This document shows positions 8,567 to 64,000 of a stretch of 64,000 nucleotides of DNA, piece after piece. The stretch covers positions 124,001-188,000 of the forward strand of contig NZ_CP097160.1 in assembly GCF_023370115.1 (NCBI RefSeq). The letters are read 5' to 3'. This DNA comes from Gulosibacter sediminis. Lineage in GTDB: Bacteria; Actinomycetota; Actinomycetes; Actinomycetales; Microbacteriaceae. The notes beneath the pieces were generated by a model that saw nothing but the letters and a program-made list of their open reading frames with translations, was not told the origin of the DNA and did no database searches. Within the stretch, counting starts at the first letter, position 1. Each line of letters begins with the position of its first letter. The position numbers were made by a program, and so were the translations under genes.

Positions 8567-11500
8567 GTGCACGCACTTGCCAAGCTCAGCCTCGCCAACC
8601 GCGCCCTCATCGCTCTCATCACGATCTCGATCGCGATCTTCGGCGCGCTCCTCATGACGAACCTGAAGCAGGAGCTGATCCCCTCGATCTCGCTCCCGCA
8701 GGTATCGGTGGTGACGAGCTATCAGGGAGCCTCGCCCGAAATCGTGGACGAGGACGTCTCGCAGCCGATCGAGTCGGCGCTGCAGGGACTGCAGGGCCTC
8801 GACTCGACGACGACCACCTCGAGCGACGGCCAGTCGGTCGTCTCGGCGAGCTTCGAGTTCGGCACCGACATCGTCTATGCCGAGCAGCGCATCCAGCAGG
8901 CACTCAACCGCATCGACGCGCAGCTGCCCGAGGACGCCGACTGGAGCGTGCTCTCGGGCTCGATTGACGACCTGCCGGTCGTGCAGCTCGCGTTCACTGG
9001 CGACGACCCGACGCAGCTCGCCGAACGCGTCGAGCAGCTCGCCGTGCCCGAGCTGCGCGGCCTCGACGGCGTGCGTGCCGCCGACGTTTCGGGTGACCGT
9101 GCCGAGCGCATCACGATCGCGCCCGATCAGCCGGCGCTCGCGGCGAACGGCCTGTCGTTGCAGGACATCACCGACACGCTCGACGACGCCGGCGTGCTTG
9201 TGCCCGCCGGCACGATCACCGAGGGCGACGAGACGCTCACGGTGCAGGCGGGCGATCTGCTTGCGTCGGTCGACGAGCTCCGCGAGATTCCCATGCCGGT
9301 CTCGGCGGATGCGACGGCCCAGCAAGACCCGACGGCGCCGGCCGCAACCCCCACTGTCGTGACCCTCGGCGACGTCGCCGATGTTGAGCAGGACTACGCG
9401 CCCGTCACCTCGATCTCGCGCGTGAACGGCGAGGATGCGCTCACCGTCTCGGTCACGAAGCGCCCCTCGGCGAACACCGTCGAGGTTTCGCAGGCCGTCG
9501 CGTCGGTGCTGCCGGAGATCGAGGCGGCGCTCGGTGACGACATCACCGTCACCGTCGCGCTCGACCAGGCCCCGTTCATCCAGCAGTCGATCGACACGCT
9601 CGTCACCGAGGGCCTGCTCGGCCTAGCGTTCGCCGTGCTCGTCATCTTCTTCTTCCTCTTCTCGGTGCGCGCGACGCTCATCACGGCGATCTCGATCCCG
9701 ACCTCACTGCTCGTCACGTTCATCGCCCTCTACTTCCTCGACTACTCGCTCAACGTGCTCACGCTCGGCGCGCTGACGATCGCGATTGGCCGCGTCGTCG
9801 ACGACTCGATCGTGGTCGTCGAGAACATCCGCCGACACCTCACGATGAATCCGTCGGCCGCCCTGCGCGGCGGCGAGCGCGTCAAGGTGATCACCGAGGC
9901 GGTGCGCGAGGTCGGCATGGCCATCACGGCGTCGACGCTCGTGACGGTCGCCGTGTTCCTGCCCGTCATCTTCGTCGGCGACGTCACGGGCGAGCTGTTC
10001 CGACCCTTCGGCCTGACGAGCGCCGTCGCGCTGCTCGCCTCGCTGTTCGTCTCGCTCACGATCGTGCCGGTGCTCGCGTACTGGTTCATGGGCGGCTCGA
10101 AGGTGCGCAAGTCGGAGCTCGAGACGCACGGCGCGCACGCGGCGGGCGGCGAGGCCGACGAACCGCGCAACTGGCTGCAGAAGTTCTATGAGCCGCTGCT
10201 GCGCCGCATCATCGTGCGCCCGGGCTGGGTGCTCGTGGGTGCCGTCGTCGTGCTCGCCGGCACGATCGCGCTCATTCCGCTCATGAAGACGAACTTCCTT
10301 GGCTCGGCCGGGCAGAACACCTTCCAGATGTCGCAGGAGGTCGGCGTCAACGCCTCGCTTGACGCGAAGACCGAGTACGCCGAGCGGCTCGAGAGCGTGC
10401 TCGACGACACCGAGGGCATCGACATCGTGCAGGTGAGCTACGGCGGCGGCGACCTCATCTCGATGTTCACGGGTGGCGGCTCAGACACCATCACCTGGTC
10501 GATCACGACCGACCCCGAGGCCGACGCCGACGCGATCCAGTCGCAGCTGCGCGACGAGGTCGAGGGCCGCGACGACCTTGGCGACGTCGAGATCGGTGCG
10601 AGCGCCGGCTTCAGCACCGACGTTACGGTGCGCGTCAGCGCTCCCGACGCCGATGTACTGCGCGAGGCCGTTGACGCCGTGACCCTCGCGGTCGAGGGCG
10701 TCGAGGGCGTGCAGCAGGTGAACACCGGCATCGACGAAACCCGCCCATTCATCGAGCTCAACATCGACCAGACCGCGGCGGCCGAGGCCGGCCTCAATGA
10801 CGTCGCGATCGGCGGCCAGGTGATGCAGGCGCTCCAGCCCGTTCCCGCCGGCTCGATCATGCTCGACGGCAGCTCGTTGCAGGTCTACTTCGTCGGCGAC
10901 GAGGAGCCGCCGGTGAGCGTCGACGAGCTGCGCGAGCTCGACATTCAGACCGGCACCGGCGTCGTGCCGCTCAGCGACCTCGCCGACGTCGAGGTGACCG
11001 ACGGCCCCGTGTCGATCACCGCCGAGTCGAGCACGCCCTACACCGACATCACGATCGTCAGCGAGAGCGACGACCTGGGCGGCATGAGCAGCGCGATCAC
11101 CGAGGCGATCGACGGCATCGAGCTGCCGGGCGGCGCGACCGCCGAACTCGGTGGCAGCGCGGCCGATCAGCAGCAGGCATTCCAGCAGCTCGGCCTCGCG
11201 ATGCTCGCCGCGATCCTCGTGGTCTACATCGTCATGGTCGCGACGCTGAAGAGCCTGCTGCAGCCCCTGCTGCTGCTCGTGTCGGTGCCGTTCGCCGCGA
11301 CCGGCGCCATCCTGCTGCAGGTCGCCACGGGCCTGCCGCTCGGCGTCGCCTCGCTCATCGGCGTGTTGATGCTGATCGGCATCGTCGTGACGAACGCGAT
11401 CGTGCTCATCGACCTCGTCAACCAGTTCAGGTCGAGGGGCAACGACGTGCGCGAGGCGACCTTCGACGGCGCCACGCGCCGTGTGCGCCCGATCGTCATG

Positions 11501-51182: not shown

Positions 51183-51680
51183 ATGAACGGCACCGAAGTA
51201 CTCCGCGACCTCGCCACCCGACCCCGCGACGCGCTGCTCGAATTCCGCACGAAACTCAGCGACGAGGCGCTCAACTCGCACCCCGCCGGCCACGACAACT
51301 CGCCCGCCTGGCTCATCTGGCACGCCGGCCGCGAGATCGACGCGCAGCTCGCGCCGCTCGCAGGCACGGATGAGGTCTGGCCGCGGTTCCGTGAGCAGCT
51401 CGCGCTCGGCGCACTCGGCGACACGAGCGGCTACGGACAGACGCCCGAGCAGGCACGCAGCATCGTCGTCCACGACGCCTCGCCGCTGCTCGACTACTTC
51501 GTGGCGACGACGGATGCGCTGCTCGCCTACCTCGGCACGCTCAGCGACGCGGACCTCGACGACGTCATCGACACGAACTGGAACCCGCCGGTGACCCGCG
51601 GCGCGCGCCTCGTCAGCATCATCGACGACGCGGCGCAGCACATCGGCCAGGCCGCGTACGCGGTCGGCACGCAGAGCTAG
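51183..51680 (+). CDS. DinB-like / DUF664 family protein
   Basis: A 165-residue four-helix protein of the DinB/maleylpyruvate-isomerase-like superfamily. The metal histidines are probably in LIWHAGREID (about 47) and DDAAQHIGQAAYA (about 155). Such proteins include mycothiol- or bacillithiol-dependent transferases; the thiol here would be mycothiol. TAGGGT at 51170-51175 ends seven bases before the ATG. Its stop shares a CTAG with the convergent kinase-like gene. Confidence 0.8.
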   Translation: MNGTEVLRDLATRPRDALLEFRTKLSDEALNSHPAGHDNSPAWLIWHAGREIDAQLAPLAGTDEVWPRFREQLALGALGDTSGYGQTPEQARSIVVHDASPLLDYFVATTDALLAYLGTLSDADLDDVIDTNWNPPVTRGARLVSIIDDAAQHIGQAAYAVGTQS

Positions 51681-53392
51681 CTAGCCGACTCCGGCCGCGC
51701 TCGCGGCAGCCAGACCGTCATGGTCGTGCCGACGCCGACTTCGGAGGTCGCGCGAATCGTGCCGCCGTGTGCCGTGACGATCCGGTCGACGATCGAGAGG
51801 CCGACGCCGGTGCCCCGCTCGCCGCCATCGCCCGACTGACTTCCCCTGAGAAAGGGCACGAACAGCTGCGACAGCTCATCGGGCGGCATGCCGGGCCCGT
51901 GATCGACCACGCGCAGCGTCACCCCCGTCGGGTTGCCTTCAAGCCGCACCTCGGCCAGGCCCTGCTCGCCGCCGTACTGAATCGCGTTGCTCAGCAGCGC
52001 ATCGAGCACCTGCGCGATGCGCTGCTTGTCGGCGACGACGAGCAGCTCGTCGGGCGCAACCAGTCGCAGCTTCGTACCGCGCAGCGCCGCGGCGGTGCGC
52101 AGCGACTCCATGACCCGCCGCGAGAATCCGACGAGCTCAAACTCGCGCCGCGAAATGTGCAGCTGCCCTCGCCGCGTTTGTTGCTCGAGCAGCAGGTCGT
52201 CGATGAGCTTGAGCACCTGCTCGGCATTGCGCTGCACCACGTCGAGGTAGTTCGGCACGGGGGTCTCGCGCACCGCCCCCGAAAGCTCGTCGTGCGTCAT
52301 GCTCGCGGTGGCCTCGCGCAGCTGCTCGACCTCGTCCTGCGTGATGTCGACGTACCCGAGAATCGAATTGAGCGGCGCCCGCACCTCGCTCGAGAGCCCT
52401 GCAACGAACTCGTCGCGCTGCCGCAGCAGCTGCTGCATCGCGGTGACGTCGGCCGCGACCACGATGAGGTGCCCCTGCAACTGGCCCTCATCACGCAACG
52501 GGTAGGCGCTCACCGAGAACGCCTTCTGCGGCCCGGTCGGTTCGCCGACGAGGATGAGCTGGTTGCGCACCGTCTCGCCGCGCATGGCCCGGCGGATGGG
52601 GTTTTGGCTCAGCTTGTAGGGCGTCACGCCGTCGGGCATGTAGCCGCCGATGCTTGCGATCGCGCGCAGGCTGCCGTCGGTGTTGGTCGCGTACTGCTTG
52701 ATCAGCCGGTCGCCCGCCTCGTTGCGCACGATCGTCTCACCCGAGGAGTCGAGGAGGTTGACGGCGACGTCGATGTTGTTCAGCGTGCGACGCAGCAGCT
52801 CGCGCGAATGCTGACTCTCCTCGGTGAGCCGCGACTGCTCGGTGAGCAAGGCGCGCAGCCGTGCATCCATGCCGAGCAGCAGGCCGCCGACCACGAGCAC
52901 GGTGAGCGGCAGCACCGCGACGACGATGAGCTGCGCCGGGTCGAAGCCGAAGGTCGACGCGAACACCGACGGGATGGTGATCGAGCAGATCACCAGCACC
53001 ACCGAGGCCCACAGCCCGCGCCACTTGTATGTGAGCATGAGCCAGGTCGCGGGGAAGAACACGAGCGGCGAGAGCGCGGCTCCCTCTGGCAGGGCACCGA
53101 AGCGGCTCAGGCCGAGGGCGATGAAGTCGAGCAGCGCGATGACGAGCACGCTCTGCGCAGCTCGCGGCAGCTTCCACTCGAAAACCGCGAGCAGGGTCGC
53201 GAGCCCTAGCAGCACGACGCCGACCGCCATGCACGCCACGCTGTTGCGCGAATCACCGTCGAGAAAATACGCGATGTCGGCGATGAGTAGCACGAGGGCG
53301 AACGCCCCCTGCGTCGCGATCGCGAACGGCCGAGGCTTCGCGGCAACGAACCCGTCGTGGAAGAACGCCGACACGGCGTCGCGGATGCTCAT
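51677..53392 (-). CDS. PAS-type sensor histidine kinase homologue without H-box histidine
   Basis: A 571-residue protein with five to six N-terminal helices (about 25-180), a PAS-like domain (about 210-320), a dimerisation helix pair and a C-terminal ATPase domain. The ATPase boxes look intact: ALLSNAIQYG (N), VVDHGPGMPPD (G1), GTGVGLSIVDRIVTAHGG (G2). The H-box, normally SHELRTPL, reads SSEVRAPLN, so the phospho-acceptor is Ser335 (AGC at 52390-52388). It probably cannot autophosphorylate in the usual way. No response regulator is adjacent; it is divergent from three LuxR-type genes, with 505 bases between. Confidence 0.85.
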   Translation of the reverse strand: MSIRDAVSAFFHDGFVAAKPRPFAIATQGAFALVLLIADIAYFLDGDSRNSVACMAVGVVLLGLATLLAVFEWKLPRAAQSVLVIALLDFIALGLSRFGALPEGAALSPLVFFPATWLMLTYKWRGLWASVVLVICSITIPSVFASTFGFDPAQLIVVAVLPLTVLVVGGLLLGMDARLRALLTEQSRLTEESQHSRELLRRTLNNIDVAVNLLDSSGETIVRNEAGDRLIKQYATNTDGSLRAIASIGGYMPDGVTPYKLSQNPIRRAMRGETVRNQLILVGEPTGPQKAFSVSAYPLRDEGQLQGHLIVVAADVTAMQQLLRQRDEFVAGLSSEVRAPLNSILGYVDITQDEVEQLREATASMTHDELSGAVRETPVPNYLDVVQRNAEQVLKLIDDLLLEQQTRRGQLHISRREFELVGFSRRVMESLRTAAALRGTKLRLVAPDELLVVADKQRIAQVLDALLSNAIQYGGEQGLAEVRLEGNPTGVTLRVVDHGPGMPPDELSQLFVPFLRGSQSGDGGERGTGVGLSIVDRIVTAHGGTIRATSEVGVGTTMTVWLPRARPESAS

Positions 53393-53897
53393 GACGGGTT
53401 TTCGGGGGAAGGGTCGAACAAGGGTGGCGCTCCGTAGTCTCGCTCTCGGCGCCGGGGTCGGCGTGAGTGGTTTTGCGACGCGTACCAACAATCCCGCGAA
53501 CGGGGCGTTGAACGCCAGTCAATCTTTGTTTTTTGTGCGCACGCTCGGGCAAGTGCTAAAGCATGCAAATTAAATCGATTAATAACGCTGCGCTGATCGG
53601 GGGTTCCGCTCGGATCATATGCGGCTTCATCGTGAAATGAGGCCTTTCGGTGGGGTGATCGGTAGGGGTGAAGTACATGTCGTACGCATAGATATCCCGA
53701 GAGGGTGGGGAGATAGTGGTACCGGGCTTAGACGAGGGCCCGACGGGGGAGGAACACCCAGCTGACGAACTCGTCACGTAGGCGAGCCGAGAAAACTTGC
53801 CTTCGAGCTTGAACTCAACAACGACGGTTGGCTCGGTGCACTCCGGGCCTGAAGTAGGAGATGACCAACGCTGGTCTGACACCTCCAGGGACGTGAA
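53393..53897. other. Divergent intergenic region of the kinase-like and LuxR genes
   Basis: 505 bases without a convincing gene and with more A+T than its surroundings. GGGGTGATC and GGGGTGAAG at 53652 and 53665 and a clustered set of AT-rich hexamers (53570-53700) are the only notable elements. A 108-codon leftward frame inside it has no ribosome site and an unlikely composition. Confidence 0.5.
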
Positions 53898-56402
53898 TTG
53901 CGAATGCCTGAAAATCGGTCATGGCTTGAACCCACCAAGCTGGTGCGTCGACGTTTTGCTCCTATCTGGAACGCCTTGCCACAGCTTACGGTGCTGGCGA
54001 CCCTGCTCGGCTGGGGGCGCTCGACCTGGATTCAGCAGTGCGACGCCCACATTCGCGAGGAACAGCCCGACGTCGCCACCGAATGGGCCTACACCCGCGC
54101 CCAGCTCGTCGAACTTCTGCACCAGCCGGGTGGCGATGAGCACCGCGTGATCCTCGCCGACGCGCTCCTCAGCGCGGCCGACGACGCCCTCTGGCCCGTC
54201 ATCACCGAGGCGCTCGCCGAGAACCCGCAGGTTCGCCTGGTCATCTCGAGCGTCGACGTGCCCCGCGCCGATCTCATCGGCCACCTCGACTACCTCGTGC
54301 TCACCGAGCGCGACCTCGCGTTCAGCCGTGCCGAGGTGCGCGAATACGTCGAGCTCACAACGGGCAGCAACCACGAGGCCCTCACGATCGCCGTCTCCGA
54401 CGGTCTGCGCGGCATGATCGAACTCATCTCGCGTCGCCTTCGTGCTCACCTCGATCAGCACGACCGGCTCGGCTGGGGCATCGCCGAGAGCTCGCCCGAG
54501 GTGCACGCCCTCAACCTCATCCGCCGGCCAGTCGGGGTGACGCTGCCGAAGCTCAGCAAGACCTGGCAGATCCTGCAGCGGGTGAAGGAGCTGCGCGCGT
54601 TCTCGGCCATGCAGCTGCACACGCACCTCGACGGCACCGAGCTCGCCGACGGCATCGACCTCGACGAGATCTTCATTCGCTTCCGCAACTTCCCCTTCTT
54701 CACCGTCGAAAACGACATCGACACCGGCGACGAGCTGCTCGTCTGGCAGCACGCCGCGTGGCAGCAGGTCGGCGCCGAGGTGCCCGAGGAGGTGCGCCGC
54801 GAGCAGCTCGAGACCGGCCTCGCGACCATCCGGCGCTCGGGCGGCATCGTCGCGCAGACCTATTACCTCGTCGCGCTCGAGCGCTTCGACGAGGCCAACC
54901 TCATCGTCACGCACAACTACCAGCACTTCATCGCGGGGCTCGACGCGGTCACGGCCGCGGTCATTGGCGACGCGACGCTGCACGCGAACATTCACCCGGC
55001 GCTCGCGGTGTTGCAGGCCGACATTCGCATCCGCAGTGGCCTCGCCGAGCGCGACCTGCGCGAGCCGCTCGACCAGGCGCTCAACGCCCTGCGCGCCGTC
55101 ACGGCGGCCGACGTCGAGAGCGAATTCGCGCGCACCGCGCTGCTCGCACACACCTCGGCCTTCGTCGGCGACCGCCCGCGCGTGCTGCGCTACCTCGAGT
55201 ATGCCTCCGAACTGAGCGTCGGCTTGCGCACCCGCTTCGGCCAGATGTCGACACGCACGCGCTCGCGGCTGGCCGAGCATCACACCCTGCTCGTCAAGGT
55301 CGCGATGCAGGTCGACCACCTCGCCCGCGCGCTCCGCATCGCGCGCGAGGCCGTGCGCCTGAGCAATCCGGGCGACATGGGGCACGTCGGCCGCACGCGC
55401 GACGTCGTGAACCTCGAGGATGCGGTTGGGATGCGTTCGCTCGCGGGCAGCGTCAGCCCGCACCAGGACGGCATGTACGGTGCCTCGGTGTCGGTGCGGT
55501 TTATCGAAGAGGGCGACGATGCCGCCGCGATCGACTTCCTCCAGACCCTCCAGGCCCTGCGCATCCGCACCGCCTCGCGCTCGGCGATCGACGCGCACAT
55601 TCTGCTCGTGCGCGCGCTCGCCGCGCCGGCCGAGCTCTCGGTGCGGGATGTGCTGCAGCCGATCGAGCGCAGCGCCGAGCTCTGGCGCACGGGCGTGCCG
55701 AGTACCTACCTCTCGTTCGCCGTGCTGCTCGCCGCCGCGTCGCGCAACCGCCAGGACGAGGGCGCCGAGATCGTCGCGCGCATCGCGAAGTCGCGCGACC
55801 CCTTCGCCCGCCTGACGCGGATGCTCTGGGCCCAGTGGAACGGCAACTTCGTCGAGTCGCTCGGCGAGGCGAGCCACGCCGGCTTCGAGGGCCTGCCGCG
55901 CTTCGCGGTGCTGCAGCGCGTGCTCGTCGCGGTCTCACAGCTGCGACTCGAGGATGCGCAGGGCTGCGTGCAGGAGCTCTGCAGCGCCTGGGGTGAGTTC
56001 GAGGCGCCGCGCCTGTTCCGCTTCGCGCTGCGCTTCATTCCGCAGGACGTCTTCGACGAATTGTTCGGAATGCGCGATGACCTGCCCTCGGGGCTGGCTC
56101 GCGTGCTCGAGGAGTCGGCGGTCGACAAGCGGAATATCTCGTGGAAGACGGTCTCGGCCCTTTCTCGCAGCGAGATCGAGGTCGTGCGCCTGCTGAGCCA
56201 TGGCCTCAAGAACCAGGAGATCGCCGAGTCCCGGCACGTCACCTTCGGCACGGTGCGCACGCAGCTCAAGAGCATTTACCGCAAGCTCGGGGTGAGCGAC
56301 CGCACGGGAGCCCTCGCCGAGGCCCGGGCACACGGCCTGATTTCGCCCGCCGGTGGGACCGGTTCTGATGTGTTCGCGAGGAAGGTCGCCGCCGACAAGT
56401 AG
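53898..56402 (+). CDS. Large LuxR-family regulator 1 (degenerate MalT-like NTPase)
   Basis: An 834-residue protein with the MalT/LAL plan. The N-terminal NTPase-like region (about 20-170) reads RRFAPIWNALPQLTVLATLLGWGRSTWIQQC; the P-loop GxGK[TS]T is GWGRST, with Arg for the essential Lys. RVILADALLSAADDALWPVI replaces Walker B and RLVISSVDVP lacks the sensor Arg. A helical repeat-rich middle follows, then a LuxR helix-turn-helix (LSRSEIEVVRLLSHGLKNQEIAESRHVTFGTVRTQLKSIY in parts, about 755-815) and a conserved VAADK end. The TTG at 53898 has AGGG seven bases upstream; the ATG at 53904 is the alternative. First of three paralogues. Confidence 0.85.
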   Translation: MRMPENRSWLEPTKLVRRRFAPIWNALPQLTVLATLLGWGRSTWIQQCDAHIREEQPDVATEWAYTRAQLVELLHQPGGDEHRVILADALLSAADDALWPVITEALAENPQVRLVISSVDVPRADLIGHLDYLVLTERDLAFSRAEVREYVELTTGSNHEALTIAVSDGLRGMIELISRRLRAHLDQHDRLGWGIAESSPEVHALNLIRRPVGVTLPKLSKTWQILQRVKELRAFSAMQLHTHLDGTELADGIDLDEIFIRFRNFPFFTVENDIDTGDELLVWQHAAWQQVGAEVPEEVRREQLETGLATIRRSGGIVAQTYYLVALERFDEANLIVTHNYQHFIAGLDAVTAAVIGDATLHANIHPALAVLQADIRIRSGLAERDLREPLDQALNALRAVTAADVESEFARTALLAHTSAFVGDRPRVLRYLEYASELSVGLRTRFGQMSTRTRSRLAEHHTLLVKVAMQVDHLARALRIAREAVRLSNPGDMGHVGRTRDVVNLEDAVGMRSLAGSVSPHQDGMYGASVSVRFIEEGDDAAAIDFLQTLQALRIRTASRSAIDAHILLVRALAAPAELSVRDVLQPIERSAELWRTGVPSTYLSFAVLLAAASRNRQDEGAEIVARIAKSRDPFARLTRMLWAQWNGNFVESLGEASHAGFEGLPRFAVLQRVLVAVSQLRLEDAQGCVQELCSAWGEFEAPRLFRFALRFIPQDVFDELFGMRDDLPSGLARVLEESAVDKRNISWKTVSALSRSEIEVVRLLSHGLKNQEIAESRHVTFGTVRTQLKSIYRKLGVSDRTGALAEARAHGLISPAGGTGSDVFARKVAADK

Positions 56403-56526
56403 GCCGCCGTAACCCCGTGACATTTCACACTGTTCAATGTCGGAGGCCGGGGCGATAATGAGGGCAATTCCAGCCGGCGCGGCCTCGCGCCCGGCTCCCG
56501 ACGCTTGGGGAGAGGGTGTCGAATAG

Positions 56527-59037
56527 GTGGTTTCGCCCGAATCAATGTGGAGCGAGCAGCGGTTGCTCGTCCGTCGCCGCTTCGCGCCCATTTGGCATGA
56601 TCTGCCGCAGCTCACCCTGCTCACCGCGTTTCACGGCTGGGGGCGCTCGGTCTGGTTGCAGCAGTGCCTCGAGTACGTCGAAACCAACGTGCCCGGGGCC
56701 GCCTGCGAGCAGGCGGTGACCCGAACGCAGTTCGCTCGGCTGCTCGGCGAGCGTGGTGACGCCGAACAGCGCATCGTCGTCGCCGACGGACTCGTCAACT
56801 CGGTTGACGACGAGCTCTGGCCCAAGATCGCCGACCACCTGCGCGCCGACCCGACGCTGCGGGTGGTCATGACGAGCATCGACCCGCCGCACCTCGAGGC
56901 GTTCTCGGGCATCGAACTGTTGCGGCTCTCGTCGCAGCAACTCGCGTTTACGAAGGCCGAGACCGAGGCCTACGTCGACCTGGTTGCCGGCCCCGGGCGC
57001 GGAGCCCTCGCCGAACTCGTCGGCGACGGCTCGAAGGGGCACCCGGCGATCATCGCGCGGCAACTGCGCAATCGTCTGGCGAAGACCCTCGACGGCTTGT
57101 GGGACGCCTCCGAGCATCCGCCCGAGGTACACGCCTTCGCGCTCACAAGCCGCAACACCGACATCGCGGCGCCGAGCGAGAGCTGCCTCTGGCGCGTGCT
57201 GCGCGTGGCGCGCGAACTGCGTTCGTTCTCGGCGCGGCAGTTGCAACTGCACCTCGAGGGCCGCTCGGACTGCGTCGGGGTGAGCCATGCCGAGGCCTTC
57301 GAGCAATTTCGCCACCAGCCGTTGTTTACCCGTGTGCTCGACTTCGAGTTTGGCGAGGAGCGCATCGCCTGGGTGCCCTCGGTGTGGCAGCAGGTGCAGC
57401 ACGAAAGCACCGACGCGCAGCGCACGAGCAGCAACCTGCGCGCCCTCGAGACCGCCCGGCGACACGGGCGCCTCGCCGATCAGCTCTTCTATCTGCTCAG
57501 CCTCGAGCGCACCGACGACGCTGACAAGCTCGTCGCTGACAACTACCAGCAGATGATGAATGTGCTCGACGCCGCCTCGGCGGCGCTCGTGAACGACCTC
57601 ACTGTCGTGCCACGCCGCACGCCGTCGCTCGCGATTTTGCAGGCCGAGGTGCGCATCAGCGATGGCGCGAAGCCGTGTGATGTGCGCGAGCTGCTCGAGG
57701 GCGCACACGCAGCGTTGCTCGCGACCTCGGTGAGCGACCTGCACGAGCAGATGACGCGGGCGACCATGCTCGCCTACGCCGCCACGTTCCTCGGCGACCG
57801 GGTGCGCGCGCGGCGTTACCTCGCGCGCATCCGCGATGTCGTCGACGGACCGCTCGGCCGCGCACTGCAGCGGGCGAGCCACGAGATTCGTTCACAGACT
57901 GCGTGCCAGCTCGGGCTGTTGGTGTGGGCCGCGATGCTCAATGACGAGCCCGCGCTTGCGCTGAAGCTGGGCCGCGGCATGCTGCTCTACGGCAGCGATA
58001 CCGACCGCGAGCAGTCGCAGCGGCGAGACACCCTCGCGAGCATCGAAGACTTCTTCGGCCTGCGCTCGATCGGCGCGCGCAGCACGCAGGCGCTCGGCGC
58101 TGGCGTGCTCGGGGACGCGGTGCCGCTGCGGCTCATCGACGAGGGGCAGGATGCTGCGGCCGTTGCCTACCTCGCGGCCCCGATGGCCGTGCGGATCGCG
58201 ACCGCGGCGCTCGTCGCGTGGGACACCATGGTGTTGTTCGTGCGCGGCATCGCGCAGCCCGACGCCTTGACCTCGCGTGAGGTGCACGAGTCGCTCGAGC
58301 GCGCGGGCGCCCTCTGGGGTAGCGCGGCGCCGAGCACGATGCTCGCCTTTGCCGCGTTCGGTGCCTTCGCGAACCTCGGTGACCGCGAGTCGGCCGCCGC
58401 GCTTGTTGCTCGGCTCGCCGACCAGCACGACGTCTTCGCGCGCATCGTGCGCTCACTCTGGTCGATGTGGAACGGCGACTTCGCGGCCGTGACGGTCGAG
58501 CTCACGCCCGAAACGCTCGGCGAGCTGCCCCGCATAGCGGCGCTCGGCCGAGTGCTGCTCGCCGCCGCGGCGCTGCGCACCGGGCAGCCGCAGCAGGCCG
58601 CGCAGCAGCTGCGCGAGGCGTGGGCCCTGGTCGAGGCGCCGCCCCTGCTGCGCTTTGCGCTGCGGTACGTGCCGCAAGGCATAGTCGACGAGTTCTCGCT
58701 GCTCGGCGCCGAGCTCGAGCCGGGGTTGCGGGATGCGCTCGACCAGGCGCGCGGCGACGCCCGGCACGTGCACTGGCAGCCGGCGGTGCAGCTCACCCGC
58801 AGCGAGGCCGAGGTGTTGCAGCTGCTCGCCCGCGGCCTCAAGAACACCGAGATCGCGACCCATCGACACGTGTCAATCGACACGGTGCGATCGCAGCTCA
58901 AGAGCCTCTACCGCAAGCTCGAGGTGACGAACCGCGACGAGGCGATCGACGCATCCCATCGCCTGCGCCTGCTGCCGCACGAGGGAGGCGGTGGGGCGAG
59001 TGACGCGTACCCTCGCCAGACCGCGGCCGACCGCTAA
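56527..59037 (+). CDS. Large LuxR-family regulator 2 (degenerate MalT-like NTPase)
   Basis: An 836-residue paralogue of the preceding protein. The start region LVRRRFAPIWHDLPQLTLLTAFHGWGRSVWLQQC keeps the fold but the P-loop is GWGRSV, so Lys and the following Thr are lost. RIVVADGLVNSVDDELWPKI and RVVMTSIDPP follow. The helix-turn-helix (LTRSEAEVLQLLARGLKNTEI, then SIDTVRSQLKSLYRKL) lies near 755-815 and the end is a Gly linker plus PRQTAADR. GTG 56527 follows GGGGAGAGGG by about ten bases; an ATG six codons in is possible. It is 124 bases from its neighbour and probably separately expressed. Confidence 0.85.
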   Translation: MVSPESMWSEQRLLVRRRFAPIWHDLPQLTLLTAFHGWGRSVWLQQCLEYVETNVPGAACEQAVTRTQFARLLGERGDAEQRIVVADGLVNSVDDELWPKIADHLRADPTLRVVMTSIDPPHLEAFSGIELLRLSSQQLAFTKAETEAYVDLVAGPGRGALAELVGDGSKGHPAIIARQLRNRLAKTLDGLWDASEHPPEVHAFALTSRNTDIAAPSESCLWRVLRVARELRSFSARQLQLHLEGRSDCVGVSHAEAFEQFRHQPLFTRVLDFEFGEERIAWVPSVWQQVQHESTDAQRTSSNLRALETARRHGRLADQLFYLLSLERTDDADKLVADNYQQMMNVLDAASAALVNDLTVVPRRTPSLAILQAEVRISDGAKPCDVRELLEGAHAALLATSVSDLHEQMTRATMLAYAATFLGDRVRARRYLARIRDVVDGPLGRALQRASHEIRSQTACQLGLLVWAAMLNDEPALALKLGRGMLLYGSDTDREQSQRRDTLASIEDFFGLRSIGARSTQALGAGVLGDAVPLRLIDEGQDAAAVAYLAAPMAVRIATAALVAWDTMVLFVRGIAQPDALTSREVHESLERAGALWGSAAPSTMLAFAAFGAFANLGDRESAAALVARLADQHDVFARIVRSLWSMWNGDFAAVTVELTPETLGELPRIAALGRVLLAAAALRTGQPQQAAQQLREAWALVEAPPLLRFALRYVPQGIVDEFSLLGAELEPGLRDALDQARGDARHVHWQPAVQLTRSEAEVLQLLARGLKNTEIATHRHVSIDTVRSQLKSLYRKLEVTNRDEAIDASHRLRLLPHEGGGGASDAYPRQTAADR

Positions 59038-59407
59038 CCAACGCCCGACAGGGCAGGGGGTGAACAAAAATGCAGGGGGGATACGCCGCAGGGTGAAAAC
59101 TTTGAATGTTCACTCATAAACGCTGTTTAAATACGTTTCAACCGGGGTATAACTAGAGATGACGGAATAGCGTCCGACGGTTCAGCGCACCTGCTCCTCG
59201 TCGACCTGATCCATACGGCAGCTCAGCGGTTCGTCGCTCCTCAGCATGCCGTGTCGGTGGCCGCGATTACGGTCGCGTGGCGGTGCCTTGACCGCGCACG
59301 ATCCGAGTCGGTCACACCCCAGCGCCGTGGAAGCGGCGCAAACATGGCACACCTGCGCCCGAGCAGGTGAAGAGCGACACCCATCTCGAAATGAGCGTGA
59401 GATCCAG
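59038..59407. other. Intergenic region before LuxR regulator 3
   Basis: 370 bases. An AT-rich block at 59100-59160 contains TATAAC preceded by GTTTAA, a possible promoter about 250 bases before the start. GGGGGTGAAC (59056) and GGGGGATACGC (59076) resemble boxes upstream of the surface-protein gene. No gene is evident; the frame of regulator 3 is open back to 59246 but the extra residues are not conserved in its paralogues. Confidence 0.5.
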
Positions 59408-62020
59408 TTGCCCACATCTATTTGGAAGTCCGTCCCCACCCTCGTTCGCACGAGGTTTGCGCCGATCTGGGACGAACTGCCGCAGCTCACCGTCGTGTCG
59501 GTGTTTCCGGGTTGGGGAGCCACGGTGTGGCTCGAGCAGTGTGTTGCCCACCTCGCCGAGCACGAACCCGAGACCCGCGTGGTCGAGACGGTGACGCGCG
59601 CCCAGCTTCGGCGCCATCTCAATGAGGTTAACCCTGCCGAGCAGCTCGTGCTCGTCGCCGATTCGCTCGTCAATGCGGTCGATGACAACATGTGGCCGCG
59701 CATCCTTGCGGAACTCGAGGCGAATCCGCGCCTTCGGGTGGTCATGACGAGCGTCGACACCCCGCCCTTTGAGCAGCTCTACGACATCGACGTCATCGCC
59801 TTGAGCGAACGCGACCTCGCGTTCACTGAAGAGGAGGTCGAGGCGCTCGTCGAGCTCACGACCGGTCGGGCGCAGCCGGCCCTCGCGACCCGCGTTGGTG
59901 AGGGCACGTACGGGCATCCGATGCTCGTGACGCGACAGCTGCGGGTGCGGCTGGGCCAGCAGTACGGCTCAACGTGGCGCATTGCCGAGACCTCGCCGCT
60001 TGTCTTCGTGCTCGAGCGTTCGGGCCGGCGCTCGGCTGGCGGCGCCATGCGGCCGAGCAAGATCTGGCAGGTGCTCCACGGCGCTCGCTCGCTGCGGTCG
60101 TTCTCGGCGAGTCAGCTGCAGACGCACTTTCAAGACGATGCCAATCTCGTCGATTCCGACTTCGCCGAGATGTTTCAGCGGTTTCGCTATCTGCCCTTTC
60201 TCGCCCGCTCGATTGACTTCGAGCTCGGCGAGGAGCGGCTCATGTGGGCGGCGAATGTCTGGCAGGCCCGCCTGCAAGAACTGACTGACGAAGAGCGCAC
60301 TGCGATGTTCGAGCAGGGGCTCGCCACCGCCCGCGCGCACGGCCGGCTTACGGGCGAGCTGCACTACCTGATGTCGCTCGGCCGGTTCACCGAGGCCGAC
60401 GCCCTCGTTGCGGGCAATTACCAGCAGATCTTGCAGGTGATCGACGATGTGCAGGCGTCCTACATCGTCGAGGCGCTGATTGACCCGCACGAGACACCGG
60501 CGCTGTCGATCATGCAGAACGAGGTGCGGTGGACCAACGGCACGCCGATCCGCGAGCTGCTGCCGAGGGCCCGCGTCGCGCACGCCGCCTTGCGCGACCG
60601 CACGGCGCGCACGCCGCAGGACGAACTCGACCGGGCAAGCATGCTCGCCTACACGGCGCTATTTCTCGGCGAGCGCGCCCGCACGGTGCGCTACCTCGAC
60701 TATGTGCTCGAGTTGTCGGCTGGGCCGCTCGGCGAGGCGCTGCAGGGTTCGGAACAGGCGGCTCGGTCGCGTGCGGCGAGTCACTTCGGCCTCCTCTTGT
60801 GGGTCGCCGTCATGGCCGATCAAATGACGACGGCACTGCGCCTCGGCGAGCAGGCGCTGCGGTACGGCACGAGCTCGGATCGCGCGCAGCCGCAGCGGCA
60901 GGATTCGCTCGCCGCGGTCGAGGACTTTCTCGGTCTTCGGCAGCTCGGCGAGCACGCGCTTCCCGCGGGGCACGGCATCGTGGGGCACACCCTCGCGCTG
61001 CGGCTCGTTGAGGAGGGGCGCGATGCCGAGGCCATCGAGGTGCTCGAGGCGCCCGTCTTTGTGCGGATCGCGGCGGCGGCGAAAAGCTCGCTGCAGACGT
61101 TCACCATGCTCGTGCGCGGCCTTGCCGCCCCTGAGAGCTTCAGCGAGCGTGACGTGCAGCGGGCCCTCGAAAAAAGCGAGGAGGTCTGGAACGACGCCTA
61201 CCCCAGCACGATGAGCGCGTTTGCCGCGCTCACGGTCTACCTGAACCAGGGCAATCGCGCGGCGGCCTCGGCACTGGTCGAACGGGTGGGTGATGCCGAT
61301 GATTACCTCGCGAACACGATGCGTACGATCTGGGATCAGTGGCACGGAGAGTACGAGTCCTCGCTCGGGTGGGTTCAGCCCGAAGCACTCGGCGACATCC
61401 CTCGCTTCAGCCTCCTGAACCGCGTGCTGCATGCGGCCTCCCAACTTCGCCTCCAGCGCGCAGCTCCGGCGGTGCGTGGGCTCAACGCGATGTGGCGCGA
61501 GTTTGAGTCGTCGGCACTGTTGCGCTGGTCGTTGCGCTACCTCCCGCGGGCAAGTGTCGAAGCGATGCTTGAGCTTGAGGGTCAGCTCGACGGCCGGGTC
61601 GTCGCCGTTGTGCGCGCCTCGCTCGGCGATGCGCACCACGTCGAGTGGTACGAGAGCTTTGCGTTGACGCGCAGCGAGATCGAGGTGCTCGAATTGCTTG
61701 ATCAGGGGCTCAAGAACACCGAGGTCGCGAGTGAACGGCACGTGACGATTGCCACGGTGCGTTCACAACTCAAGAGCATTTACCGCAAACTCGGGGCGGC
61801 CGGGAGGGCCGAGGCCCTCGAGATTGCGCACCGTAACCAGCTACTGGGGCGTGAGGCGGCGCCGGAGGACTTCAGCGACCACGGCACCAAGCCGATTCGC
61901 GCTGTGCCCCGCAATGGTGAGCGCGGCGCAGCGCCGGTGCCGCCGGTGGGTGACGACGGCACCGCCGGCGGTGGTGGGGGCCAGGATTCGTTCCCTCGGT
62001 CGACAGCGGCCGATAAGTAG
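59408..62020 (+). CDS. Large LuxR-family regulator 3 (degenerate MalT-like NTPase)
   Basis: The third paralogue, 870 residues from the TTG at 59408, which is where similarity to the other two begins (LVRTRFAPIWDELPQLTVVSVFPGWGATVWLEQC). The P-loop Lys is Ala (GWGATV). LVLVADSLVNAVDDNMWPRI and RVVMTSVDTP match the family. The helix-turn-helix contains LTRSEIEVLELLDQGLKNTEV and TIATVRSQLKSIYRKL; a 60-residue Gly/Pro-rich linker leads to PRSTAADK at the very end. The start has a weak ribosome site and an in-frame upstream start at 59246 cannot be excluded. A terminator follows 13 bases after the stop. Confidence 0.83.
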   Translation: MPTSIWKSVPTLVRTRFAPIWDELPQLTVVSVFPGWGATVWLEQCVAHLAEHEPETRVVETVTRAQLRRHLNEVNPAEQLVLVADSLVNAVDDNMWPRILAELEANPRLRVVMTSVDTPPFEQLYDIDVIALSERDLAFTEEEVEALVELTTGRAQPALATRVGEGTYGHPMLVTRQLRVRLGQQYGSTWRIAETSPLVFVLERSGRRSAGGAMRPSKIWQVLHGARSLRSFSASQLQTHFQDDANLVDSDFAEMFQRFRYLPFLARSIDFELGEERLMWAANVWQARLQELTDEERTAMFEQGLATARAHGRLTGELHYLMSLGRFTEADALVAGNYQQILQVIDDVQASYIVEALIDPHETPALSIMQNEVRWTNGTPIRELLPRARVAHAALRDRTARTPQDELDRASMLAYTALFLGERARTVRYLDYVLELSAGPLGEALQGSEQAARSRAASHFGLLLWVAVMADQMTTALRLGEQALRYGTSSDRAQPQRQDSLAAVEDFLGLRQLGEHALPAGHGIVGHTLALRLVEEGRDAEAIEVLEAPVFVRIAAAAKSSLQTFTMLVRGLAAPESFSERDVQRALEKSEEVWNDAYPSTMSAFAALTVYLNQGNRAAASALVERVGDADDYLANTMRTIWDQWHGEYESSLGWVQPEALGDIPRFSLLNRVLHAASQLRLQRAAPAVRGLNAMWREFESSALLRWSLRYLPRASVEAMLELEGQLDGRVVAVVRASLGDAHHVEWYESFALTRSEIEVLELLDQGLKNTEVASERHVTIATVRSQLKSIYRKLGAAGRAEALEIAHRNQLLGREAAPEDFSDHGTKPIRAVPRNGERGAAPVPPVGDDGTAGGGGGQDSFPRSTAADK

Positions 62021-62033
62021 CCACGTTTTTGCG

Positions 62034-62076
62034 GCGCAGGTGCGGGTGACCCGATTCGGGCCACCCGCACCTGCGC
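62034..62076 (+). terminator. Strong hairpin terminator after LuxR regulator 3
   Basis: GCGCAGGTGCGGGTG pairs with CACCCGCACCTGCGC and CCCG/CGGG closes the inner stem. It separates the regulator triplet from the surface-protein gene. Confidence 0.9.
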
Positions 62077-62416
62077 GTTTCCGCGCCATCGCGGCCCGCG
62101 AGGGCGTTCGGTGGGGGGGGGGATGTCGCGTCGCCTGGCGACACGTGTTGGGCGAGACCTTCGGTCGTGCTTGATGAACGAGGGGGGACGCACGAAAACG
62201 CATTGGGGGATGCGGGGGTACGCGGCCGAGATCGTGGGGGTATGCGAGTGGGGAAAAGCGGCGTTGAACTGTCTGTGATTTGGCTGTGCAAAAGGCAACG
62301 AACCCATAACTTGAAGGCAGGAATCACCTGGCCTTTTGCCTGACGCCGCGGCGCACCTTCGCTCGCACCCGGCGGTCAAGTGGTTCACCCAACCACGAGA
62401 CAAGAAGGACTCCCGC
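62077..62416. other. Leader region of the surface-protein gene
   Basis: 340 gene-free bases. It contains ten consecutive G (62113-62122), a small hairpin TGTCGC/GCGACA just after, a four-copy G-rich box array (62183-62245) and, nearer the gene, CAAAAGGC/GCCTTTTG (62288-62340 region), a palindrome that could form a leader hairpin. No promoter hexamers stand out. Confidence 0.5.
62183..62245 (+). repeat. Four G-rich boxes GGGGG(T)A[CT]GC
   Basis: GGGGGACGC (62183), GGGGGATGC (62205), GGGGGTACGC (62214) and GGGGGTATGC (62236). Spacings are 22, 9 and 22 bases, so alternate boxes are 31 bases apart, close to whole helical turns. A likely protein-binding array, judged from pattern and position only. 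Confidence 0.55.
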
Positions 62417-64000
62417 ATGCAGCAGCGTCGCGCCATGATTCGCCGAGGAACCGCCACCCGCGGTGTCCGCGTCGCGCTGATCGCGGCGCTGCTCGGTGGG
62501 CTGGTCGGGATGCCCGCCACCGGTGCCTTCGCGGCCACCGGTGACGAGCCCACGGCAACCCCCACCGCGAGCGAGACTGCCGATGCGTCGACCGAGGCCA
62601 CCGAGTCGACGACGGCCCCCACGGAGACCGCGGGCGCCGAAGACGACGCCGCGAGCACCGACGCCACGACGGAGTCGTACAACGCGGTGACCCCGAACGC
62701 GATCATCTCGCCGATGGCGGTGCCAACGCTGCAGTGCGGCGACGGGTACTTCTATTCGGTGCGGAACGACGGCACCGTGCGCAAGATCAACGCTGAAACG
62801 GGCACGGCATCGACCGAGGGCAGTTGGACCGGGCGCTCGGAAGTCAACGGCCTCGGTATCGGCGCGAACGGCGAGACGATGTACGCCTATCAGCGCTCGG
62901 GCAACAACGTCCAGAACATTTCGACCATGCTGCGGTGGACCGCAGCAAGCGGTCAGTGGGAGGCCATCCCCGGGAGCGCCAACTCGATCGGTGGGTCGAA
63001 CGGCCTCGTCGCTGGCGCGGTCGATCTGAACACGGGTCTGTACGTGTATGGCGCCTACTCGACGCAGAGCGGCACCGTTTATCTGAACCTCTACGTCTAT
63101 AACCCCGCAAGCAACCAGCACACCTACATTGGCCGCGCCAACGTTGGAGACACCTGGGGCGGCAATTACTCCGGGTACAACGGTGACTTCGCCTTTGACT
63201 CCACGGGCACCCTGTTTGCGGTGCGTGCGAGCCAAAAGAATGGCAATAACATCCGCATGTCGATCGCGTCGATCAGCGCGAGCCAGCTCGCCGCTGCCAT
63301 CGCCAATCCTCCCGCACAGAACGCGATTCCCGCGGCAACTGGAACTATCCACACCATCTCCAACGCCCCGAGTGGTGTGAACGGAATCGCCTTCCTGCCG
63401 GACGGCACGGTAATGCTCGGCGACGGCACGACCGCGTCAAAGTACAACCCGTCCACGGGTGTGAAGATCCCGAACACTAGCACCCTGACGATTGCGCCCT
63501 CGAGCAATTCGAGCACCGACCTCGCGAGCTGCGCCTCGCCCGCCACCGTCACGCTGCTGAAAGACGTCGCCGGCCGCTCCGACTCGAGCGACCAGTTCAA
63601 CCTGACCCTGCGTGACTCGAGTCAGACCGGCTCGGTCATCTCGACCGGCACGACGAGCGGCTCGGCCACGGGCATCCAGGGTGTTCAGGTCGGCCCGTTC
63701 CCCGTGCAGACCGGCCAGGTGGTTGCGATCTCGGAGTCGATGGCCTCGGGCTCGACGTCCACGCTCGCGGACTACACCAGCAGCTACCAGTGCGTTGACG
63801 AGACCGGCGCGACCCTCGCATCCGGCAATGCCTCGCAGGGCACCGTGAAGATTCCGAACCGCGGCGGCGCCGCCGTGGTCTGCACGATCACGAACAAGCC
63901 GCTCGTCGCCGCGATCAAGGTGACGAAGACGGTGCAGGACTCGCACGGTGAGAACGATGCGCTCGCCTCGGGCTGGGCCATGACCGTCAACCCGACGACC
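62417..64000 (+). CDS. Large secreted surface protein, adhesin-like (C-terminus outside window)
   Basis: 528 residues are visible from the ATG at 62417, eight bases after AAGGA. A basic start and hydrophobic core (VALIAALLGGLVGMPATGAFA, cut near residue 41) form a signal peptide. A Thr/Glu/Ala-rich linker runs to about 95. Residues about 103-375 look like a beta-propeller-type domain (CGDGYFYSVRNDGTVRKIN, GIAFLPDGTVMLGDG). From 380 on, prealbumin/SpaA-like repeats begin (TVTLLKDVAGRSDSSDQFNLTL; then IKVTKTVQDSHGENDALASG). The protein continues beyond the window, where more repeats and a wall-sorting signal would be expected. Its position after the LuxR triplet suggests control by it. Confidence 0.85.
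   Translation, partial: MQQRRAMIRRGTATRGVRVALIAALLGGLVGMPATGAFAATGDEPTATPTASETADASTEATESTTAPTETAGAEDDAASTDATTESYNAVTPNAIISPMAVPTLQCGDGYFYSVRNDGTVRKINAETGTASTEGSWTGRSEVNGLGIGANGETMYAYQRSGNNVQNISTMLRWTAASGQWEAIPGSANSIGGSNGLVAGAVDLNTGLYVYGAYSTQSGTVYLNLYVYNPASNQHTYIGRANVGDTWGGNYSGYNGDFAFDSTGTLFAVRASQKNGNNIRMSIASISASQLAAAIANPPAQNAIPAATGTIHTISNAPSGVNGIAFLPDGTVMLGDGTTASKYNPSTGVKIPNTSTLTIAPSSNSSTDLASCASPATVTLLKDVAGRSDSSDQFNLTLRDSSQTGSVISTGTTSGSATGIQGVQVGPFPVQTGQVVAISESMASGSTSTLADYTSSYQCVDETGATLASGNASQGTVKIPNRGGAAVVCTITNKPLVAAIKVTKTVQDSHGENDALASGWAMTVNPTT

Follow-up and report, generated by a model that had tools for sequence, protein, structure and literature searches.

Three tandem regulator genes of Gulosibacter sediminis encode members of what appears to be a derived MalT-type branch of STAND proteins with an altered P-loop; they lie directly upstream of a sortase pilus operon, and some relatives in other genera likewise adjoin pilus or surface-protein genes. 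On balance, we favour the view that this branch controls the pilus and that its nucleotide turnover has been lost or weakened. The genes were found in a stretch of 64,000 nucleotides, referred to below as the window, which corresponds to positions 124001–188000 of the single contig (2,748,452 bases) of the genome.

The regulator genes and their relatives

Gene 1 (53898–56402, forward strand; product P1) encodes a MalT-like regulator of 834 aa; it begins with TTG, and an ATG at 53904 is a possible alternative start. Its paralogues, gene 2 (56527–59037; P2, 836 aa) and gene 3 (59408–62020; P3, 870 aa), follow on the same strand. The start of gene 3 is uncertain, since a longer open reading frame of 924 aa begins at 59246. 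Over the full length, P2 is 40% identical to P1 and about 45% (44–45%) identical to P3. A LuxR-type helix-turn-helix (HTH) domain (GerE, PF00196) scored above the Pfam cut-off at the C-terminus of all three proteins: residues 754–806 (P1); 755–808 (P2); and 753–806 (P3). Pfam returned no NTPase model for any of them even at E 10, and NCBIfam likewise recognized only the HTH. The three lengths (834, 836, and 870 aa) are in the size range of LAL regulators, about 800–950 aa.

Past the HTH, each protein carries a Gly-rich linker and then a similar C-terminal tail (3' ends of the genes at 56402, 59037, and 62020). The tail residues are SDVFARKVAADK, SDAYPRQTAADR, and QDSFPRSTAADK in the three regulators and ADAFPQRIAAGR in one copy from Gulosibacter faecalis. 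A terminator-like hairpin (62034–62076; arms of 21 nt, 95% complementary, spacer of 1 nt) is located 13 bp past the stop codon of gene 3; in G. faecalis, too, the regulator is followed by a similar inverted repeat.

The search for relatives covered 60 close genomes, 11 genomes of the genus, 398 of the family, and 396 of the order, in overlapping sets. P1, P2, and P3 were the only full-length relatives found in the whole G. sediminis genome, and no canonical LAL was found there with MalT as the query (E 1e-8; 14 of 14 candidates scored) or with a LAL profile (E 1e-15; 15 of 55 candidates scored). The family-wide search gave matches in 291 of 398 genomes; among the matches listed, most were C-terminal only. 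Full-length relatives amounted to 17 proteins in 12 genomes, a count that may be incomplete, as two candidates per genome were scored when profiles were run across the family and the order. Four copies were present in G. faecalis ([Zimmermannella] faecalis ATCC 13722; G007), a member of the Microbacteriaceae and of the same genus, three in G. sediminis, and one each in genomes G350, G083, G105, G302, G365, G218, G390, G045, G469, and G521. The G083 gene, which adjoins pilus genes, is interrupted by an in-frame TGA (L078, about position 11055), reflecting either a broken gene or a sequencing error.

The tree comprised 17 rows, namely 16 relatives (G218 was left out) and one outgroup (G013). P1 grouped with a copy from G. 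faecalis (support 100/99). P2 and P3 were sisters with support of 90/92, slightly below the tool's mark for firm support, and this pair was placed beside another G. faecalis copy (100/99). The earlier note's description of three tandem same-strand paralogues of 834–870 aa is borne out, and so is its suggestion of local duplication, which would apply to genes 2 and 3; the type of gene 1 is common to G. faecalis.

Homology of the N-terminal part to MalT was established by comparing profiles. These were needed on both sides because MalT as a single sequence gave a weak comparison (E 0.022, probability 2.1%), in the same register as the profile comparison. A profile of 14 family members matched one made of MalT and 20 LALs from related genomes with E 1.3e-14 and a probability of 98.3%; the controls, a reversed profile and five column shuffles, gave E-values of 0.38–0.65. 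With P1–P3 alone as the profile, the match to the MalT/LAL profile had E 1.9e-8. A second comparison by hhalign (14 family rows against 14 LALs and MalT) covered 263 columns and reached into the WHD with E 6e-13. Homology of the NBD, HD, and WHD to the STAND NOD is thus supported by hhalign, with controls that cover the N-terminal part. The register pairs GWGR with GYGK of MalT, VVAD with LVID, TSID with LSRN, and LAFT.E with LAFT.E.

A sequence profile search of the PDB gave nothing useful (four matches, best E 0.036). The AlphaFold model, for which P1–P3 were the only input, was of modest quality (mean pLDDT 60.6, pTM 0.40). Its predicted secondary structure is consistent with the strand/helix order of a P-loop NTPase, a long helical repeat region, and an HTH. 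The best PDB match of the model was 6mfv, a STAND protein with TPRs (E 1.1e-5), with low TM-scores of 0.23/0.28; the rest of the top 50 were mostly eukaryotic TPR proteins. In this low-confidence model, the sensor region past the NOD appears as helical repeats, and TPR proteins are among its matches. P1–P3 are accordingly read as MalT-type relatives with an NBD–HD–WHD, a putative helical TPR-like sensor, and a LuxR HTH. LALs are recognized via the Walker A motif (PMC3282765). Since P1–P3 depart from GxGK[ST] at this motif, we class them as derived relatives and not as standard LALs.

The nucleotide site

In the profile alignment, with the register counted by hand, Lys45 of MalT aligns with Arg in P1 (Walker A GWGRST, 54009–54026), Arg in P2 (GWGRSV, 56635–56652), and Ala in P3 (GWGATV, 59510–59527). 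Counted in the same way, MalT Arg160 aligns with Val, Ile, and Val of the sensor stretches SSVD (54246–54257), TSID (56872–56883), and TSVD (59747–59758), respectively. The Walker B Asp is retained in all three proteins: LAD in P1 (within 54153–54170); VAD in P2 (within 56779–56796); and VAD in P3 (within 59654–59671). The next acidic position of Walker B is occupied in P1–P3 by Ala, Gly, or Ser.

Across the 17 family proteins from 12 genomes, the Walker A letter is Arg in 12, Ala in three (P3, G521, and G469), and Lys in two (GWGKRT in G350 and GWGKSV in G083). The Lys pair grouped together in the tree (100/99), and the Ala members fell in two places. The P-loop of genus g94, GMPGSGRTT, has Arg and is otherwise intact. 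By contrast, canonical LALs of the order (55 rows) have Lys in 45 of 46 distinct P-loops and a gap in the remaining one, in a set retrieved with Lys-bearing queries, by which Lys was perhaps favoured. Chance or artefact as the source of the exchange was rejected, as it is common to relatives in other genera. Conservation was 0.77 in the Walker A stretch versus 0.49 in the NBD, 0.46 in the HD/WHD, and 0.48 in the repeat region (16 rows, with the G083 fragment left out). The Lys has thus been exchanged, mostly for Arg, within a motif still under constraint.

Fifteen of the 17 proteins retain the Walker B Asp; G521 and G469 lack it, which overturned the invariance that this and other columns had displayed in 14 family rows. 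The second acidic position is kept in seven. None of the 17 proteins has the sensor Arg; as 3 of 20 canonical LALs have another residue there too, the loss is weakened as a special mark of the family.

These alignments confirm what the earlier note had stated about the exchange of the P-loop Lys for Arg, Arg, and Ala and about the missing sensor Arg. Its view that the domain is under selection agrees with the Walker A stretch being among the best conserved parts, and the separate clade it anticipated was recovered, 15 of the 17 members found having lost the Lys. The stretch VADxLVNxVDDxxWPxI, regarded there as a replacement motif, aligns instead with Walker B of MalT (VIDD) with its first Asp kept. 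Likewise, "dead" says more of the P-loop than the alignments do, which reveal an altered one. They do not demonstrate that nucleotide binding is lost, because the usual replacement is a conserved Arg in an otherwise intact P-loop, the Walker B Asp is mostly kept, and Lys occurs in G350 and G083. Of the proposed ATP-independent or pseudo-NTPase family, it is therefore the altered P-loop that is shown, and the different ligands suggested there for the paralogues are putative.

As a reading of the whole branch, that proposal would make the fold a scaffold for oligomerization or ligand binding that holds no nucleotide and is activated by a ligand or partner alone. We regard it as possible, if rather doubtful. 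It would account for Ala in place of Lys in P3, G521, and G469, for the additional absence of the Walker B Asp from the latter two, and for the sensor Arg missing throughout; with neither Lys nor Walker B Asp in G521 and G469, nucleotide binding cannot be needed branch-wide. The same reading sits poorly with a basic residue, and exactly Arg, in 12 of 17 proteins, in a P-loop that is otherwise well conserved, as in g94, and with a Walker B Asp in nearly all of them. In RAD51, the K133R exchange leaves ATP bound and not hydrolysed (PMC10681713), and the active form of MalT-type STANDs is the ATP-bound one, which hydrolysis resets (PMC4381067). By analogy with both, P1 and P2 would bind nucleotide and hardly hydrolyse it.

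The pilus operon and candidate G-rich boxes

Directly 3' of gene 3, and missed by the earlier note, are genes for a tip protein, a SpaH/EbpB-type major pilin, and a class C sortase (genome positions 186417–191656; L073, 418–5657). Genes outside the window were called by our own GC3-based caller, and one tip gene was added by eye. The locus encodes the components by which sortase pili are recognized: a class C sortase (NF033745), an LPxTG major pilin (NF033902), and a tip with SpaA domains. The tip gene starts at 62417 on the forward strand and runs beyond the window end at 64000; its product has SpaA-type domains, an IPLTG sorting signal, and, judged by eye, a signal-peptide-like N-terminus. 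NF033745 and NF033902 were above cut-off in G. sediminis and G350, and NF033902 also in G083.

In G. faecalis, the gene order is regulator, tip, shaft, sortase, regulator, regulator, with flanks as in G. sediminis. These include an RNase-like protein (77% identical between the two genomes) and a PAS-type sensor histidine kinase (51677–53491, reverse strand), which is divergent from gene 1 and 44% identical to the G. faecalis kinase in the same place. No response regulator was seen beside the kinase. Between the two species, three flanking genes are 70–77% identical, the kinase 44%, the tip protein 43%, and the sortase 75%; the kinase, regulators, and tip protein diverge fast together, and the sortase does not.

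Beyond the genus, members of three other genera have relatives next to pilus genes or genes for LPxTG-type surface proteins. The order is sigma-like gene, tip, shaft, sortase, regulator in G350 and regulator (with the in-frame stop), sigma-like gene, tip, shaft in G083. Both sigma-like genes were recognized by eye (L077, 17746–18996, before the tip gene in G350; L078, 12244–12864, between regulator and tip gene in G083), and none was seen by eye at the tip-side position in G. sediminis or G. faecalis. In the three g36 genomes found, a gene for a long surface protein lies divergently to the regulator; the LPxTG-type end of this protein was read by eye as LSSTG (G045), LASTG (G469), and LPVTG (G521); the G045 protein, the one submitted to a family search, contains SdrD_B and SpaA families. 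Among the five g94 genomes, the four retrieved with flanks (all but G390) showed no pilus neighbours beside the regulator, and neither did the fourth G. faecalis copy. A related pilus sortase occurs in 5 of the 11 genomes of the genus, two of which carry regulators. In the other three (G001, G009, and G005), the sortase pilus operon was seen by eye elsewhere, beside EF-Tu genes and in two of them also ribosomal protein genes.

Judging from this neighbourhood, the three regulators probably control the downstream pilus. Among the literature matches listed, there was no LuxR-type regulator of this kind for sortase pilus operons, and those on LALs and Walker A motifs held nothing of this kind.

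The coding strand carries G-runs upstream of the regulators and of the pilus operon in both G. sediminis and G. faecalis. In the window, these include the tandem G-rich boxes GGGGTGATcggtaGGGGTGAA 5' of gene 1 (53652–53672, forward strand) and three boxes, GGGGGTGAAC, GGGGGGATAC, and AGGGTGAAAAC, in the gap between genes 2 and 3 (59056–59100, forward strand). Seven regulator and pilus upstream regions together hold 17 forward copies of the core GGGKGAW and one reverse copy (two-sided P 1.4e-4); one of these regions, between kinase and regulator in G. faecalis, has none. The background density is 0.18 per kb per strand, taken over the entire window with the locus included, and other intergenic DNA has two on both strands of 3092 bp. 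None was found in the gene 1–gene 2, tip–shaft, and post-sortase gaps. With the core fixed beforehand on the genus of G. sediminis, six were seen in g36 versus 0.75 expected (P 1.3e-4). The core was not found upstream of two g94 regulators or of the fourth G. faecalis copy. G350 has the pilus operon, yet a single core in the 541 bp before it.

The tandem pattern GGGGKGAW-N3-7-GGGKGAW has a single match in the 2.75-Mb genome, at 53652–53672, and its reversed control has none. Of 17 other genomes scanned, G045 and G469 have one match each, both in the gap between regulator and surface protein, and G083 has two, one of which lies in the interval separating the regulator from the pilus genes. As the spacing was set after viewing the G. 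sediminis and g36 sites, this match in G083 is the only tandem one that played no part in designing the pattern; box patterns in general were partly derived from sequences on which they were then tested. The match in G. faecalis is on the other strand, near a sortase gene. Stray matches occur once each in G006, G008, G010, G350, G105, and G083. The pattern is absent from G002, G003, G004, G521, and G218, as well as from G001, G005, and G009, the last three being the congeners with a related pilus sortase and no full-length regulator relative; upstream of the pilus genes, one of these three has a single core and the other two have none. In a motif search, widths 9 and 11 outscored 12 of 12 shuffles and width 13 was beaten by 2 of 12, in a test that leans to the real set (40 restarts versus 15 for shuffles). 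The pattern GGGGGATGC-N0-3-GGGK, drawn from its own matching places and hence descriptive only, had 0–16 counted matches each in nine other congeners. With their core and 12–13 bp period, the boxes resemble the MalT box, GGGGA(T/G)GAGG, which occurs in repeats (PMC7567727), and they may be bound by the regulators.

The region of the pilus promoter contains five runs of at least five G (62113–62240, forward strand; starting at 62113, 62182, 62205, 62214, and 62236). Five such runs within 130 bp were met in 0 of 20,000 uniform random placements, a model that ignores local composition. The first run, a G10 tract (62113–62122) with 294 bases between it and the tip ATG, is the only homopolymer of at least 7 in the window and falls inside the G-rich box cluster. 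Four places in the genome have at least 9 G. By analogy with Bifidobacterium pili, the tract is possibly a slippage switch. G083 has a G9 tract in the gap that separates its regulator from its pilus genes, but its genome contains many more long G-tracts.

That the pilus neighbourhood is incidental, with the regulators acting on other targets and the G-rich boxes due to composition or belonging to another factor, seems unlikely to us. The g94 genomes and the G. faecalis copy that have no pilus neighbours would fit such a view, as would the stray tandem matches, while in four genera, which differ in gene order, the regulator has pilus or LPxTG-type genes as neighbours, and the three congeners with a pilus sortase and no regulator are devoid of the tandem match and, upstream of their pilus genes, nearly so of the core.

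Proposed mechanism and comparison with known systems

In the mechanism we favour, the exchange of the Walker A Lys, mostly for Arg, marks a regulator branch of which P1–P3 would control the downstream sortase pilus operon and their own genes, multimerizing on tandem G-rich, MalT-box-like sites. With their Arg P-loop and Walker B Asp, P1 and P2 would most likely hold nucleotide and turn it over poorly, and P3, with Ala, would be the most degenerate member. The switch would then be set by binding of a ligand, partner, or paralogue and not by ATP hydrolysis. A more detailed version is speculative and, taken as a whole, not likely: the hydrolytic reset would have been given up, with the Arg P-loop locking the nucleotide; mixed Arg/Arg/Ala oligomers, sensor plus helper-like, would set pilus expression on G-rich direct repeats; and slippage in the G10 tract would tune the same promoter. 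That the proteins are working NTPases, with Arg taking the role of Lys in a MalT-like cycle, is improbable: the conserved Arg, the Lys of two relatives, and the second Walker B acidic residue in 7 of 17 would agree with it, but in P1–P3 that residue is replaced, the sensor Arg is missing from all members, and the near-constant Lys of canonical LALs suggests that the exchange is not neutral.

Compared with MalT of Escherichia coli, P1–P3 are similar in length and have their parts in the same order, with a NOD, a predicted helical repeat sensor, and a C-terminal LuxR HTH; the P-loop, Walker B, LAFT.E segment, and WHD can be aligned, and asymmetric G-rich boxes in repeats are common to both systems (PMC7567727). 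They differ in the replaced Walker A Lys and sensor Arg and in being linked to pilus instead of sugar genes, with no link to maltotriose known. Size, C-terminal HTH, and the homologous N-terminal domain are shared with canonical LALs, from which P1–P3 are set apart by the altered Walker A and the lack of an NTPase call by Pfam and NCBIfam. In Bifidobacterium breve, too, a sortase pilus operon has a long G-tract close to its start; there it lies inside the first pilus gene (PMC9187656), in contrast to its position before the tip ATG here, where slippage is only putative. The Spa pili of Corynebacterium are encoded by the same operon type of tip, shaft, and sortase, but the regulators named in the account cited are GlxR, through a predicted site, and DtxR, as a proposal, and not STAND proteins (PMC3022926).

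The pilus link would name a candidate regulator type for sortase pili in the Microbacteriaceae. STAND proteins, among them MalT, APAF1, and the NLRs of plants and animals, are taught as ATP/ADP switches. A single tree with Lys, Arg, and Ala members would make it possible to ask which step of this cycle requires the lysine.
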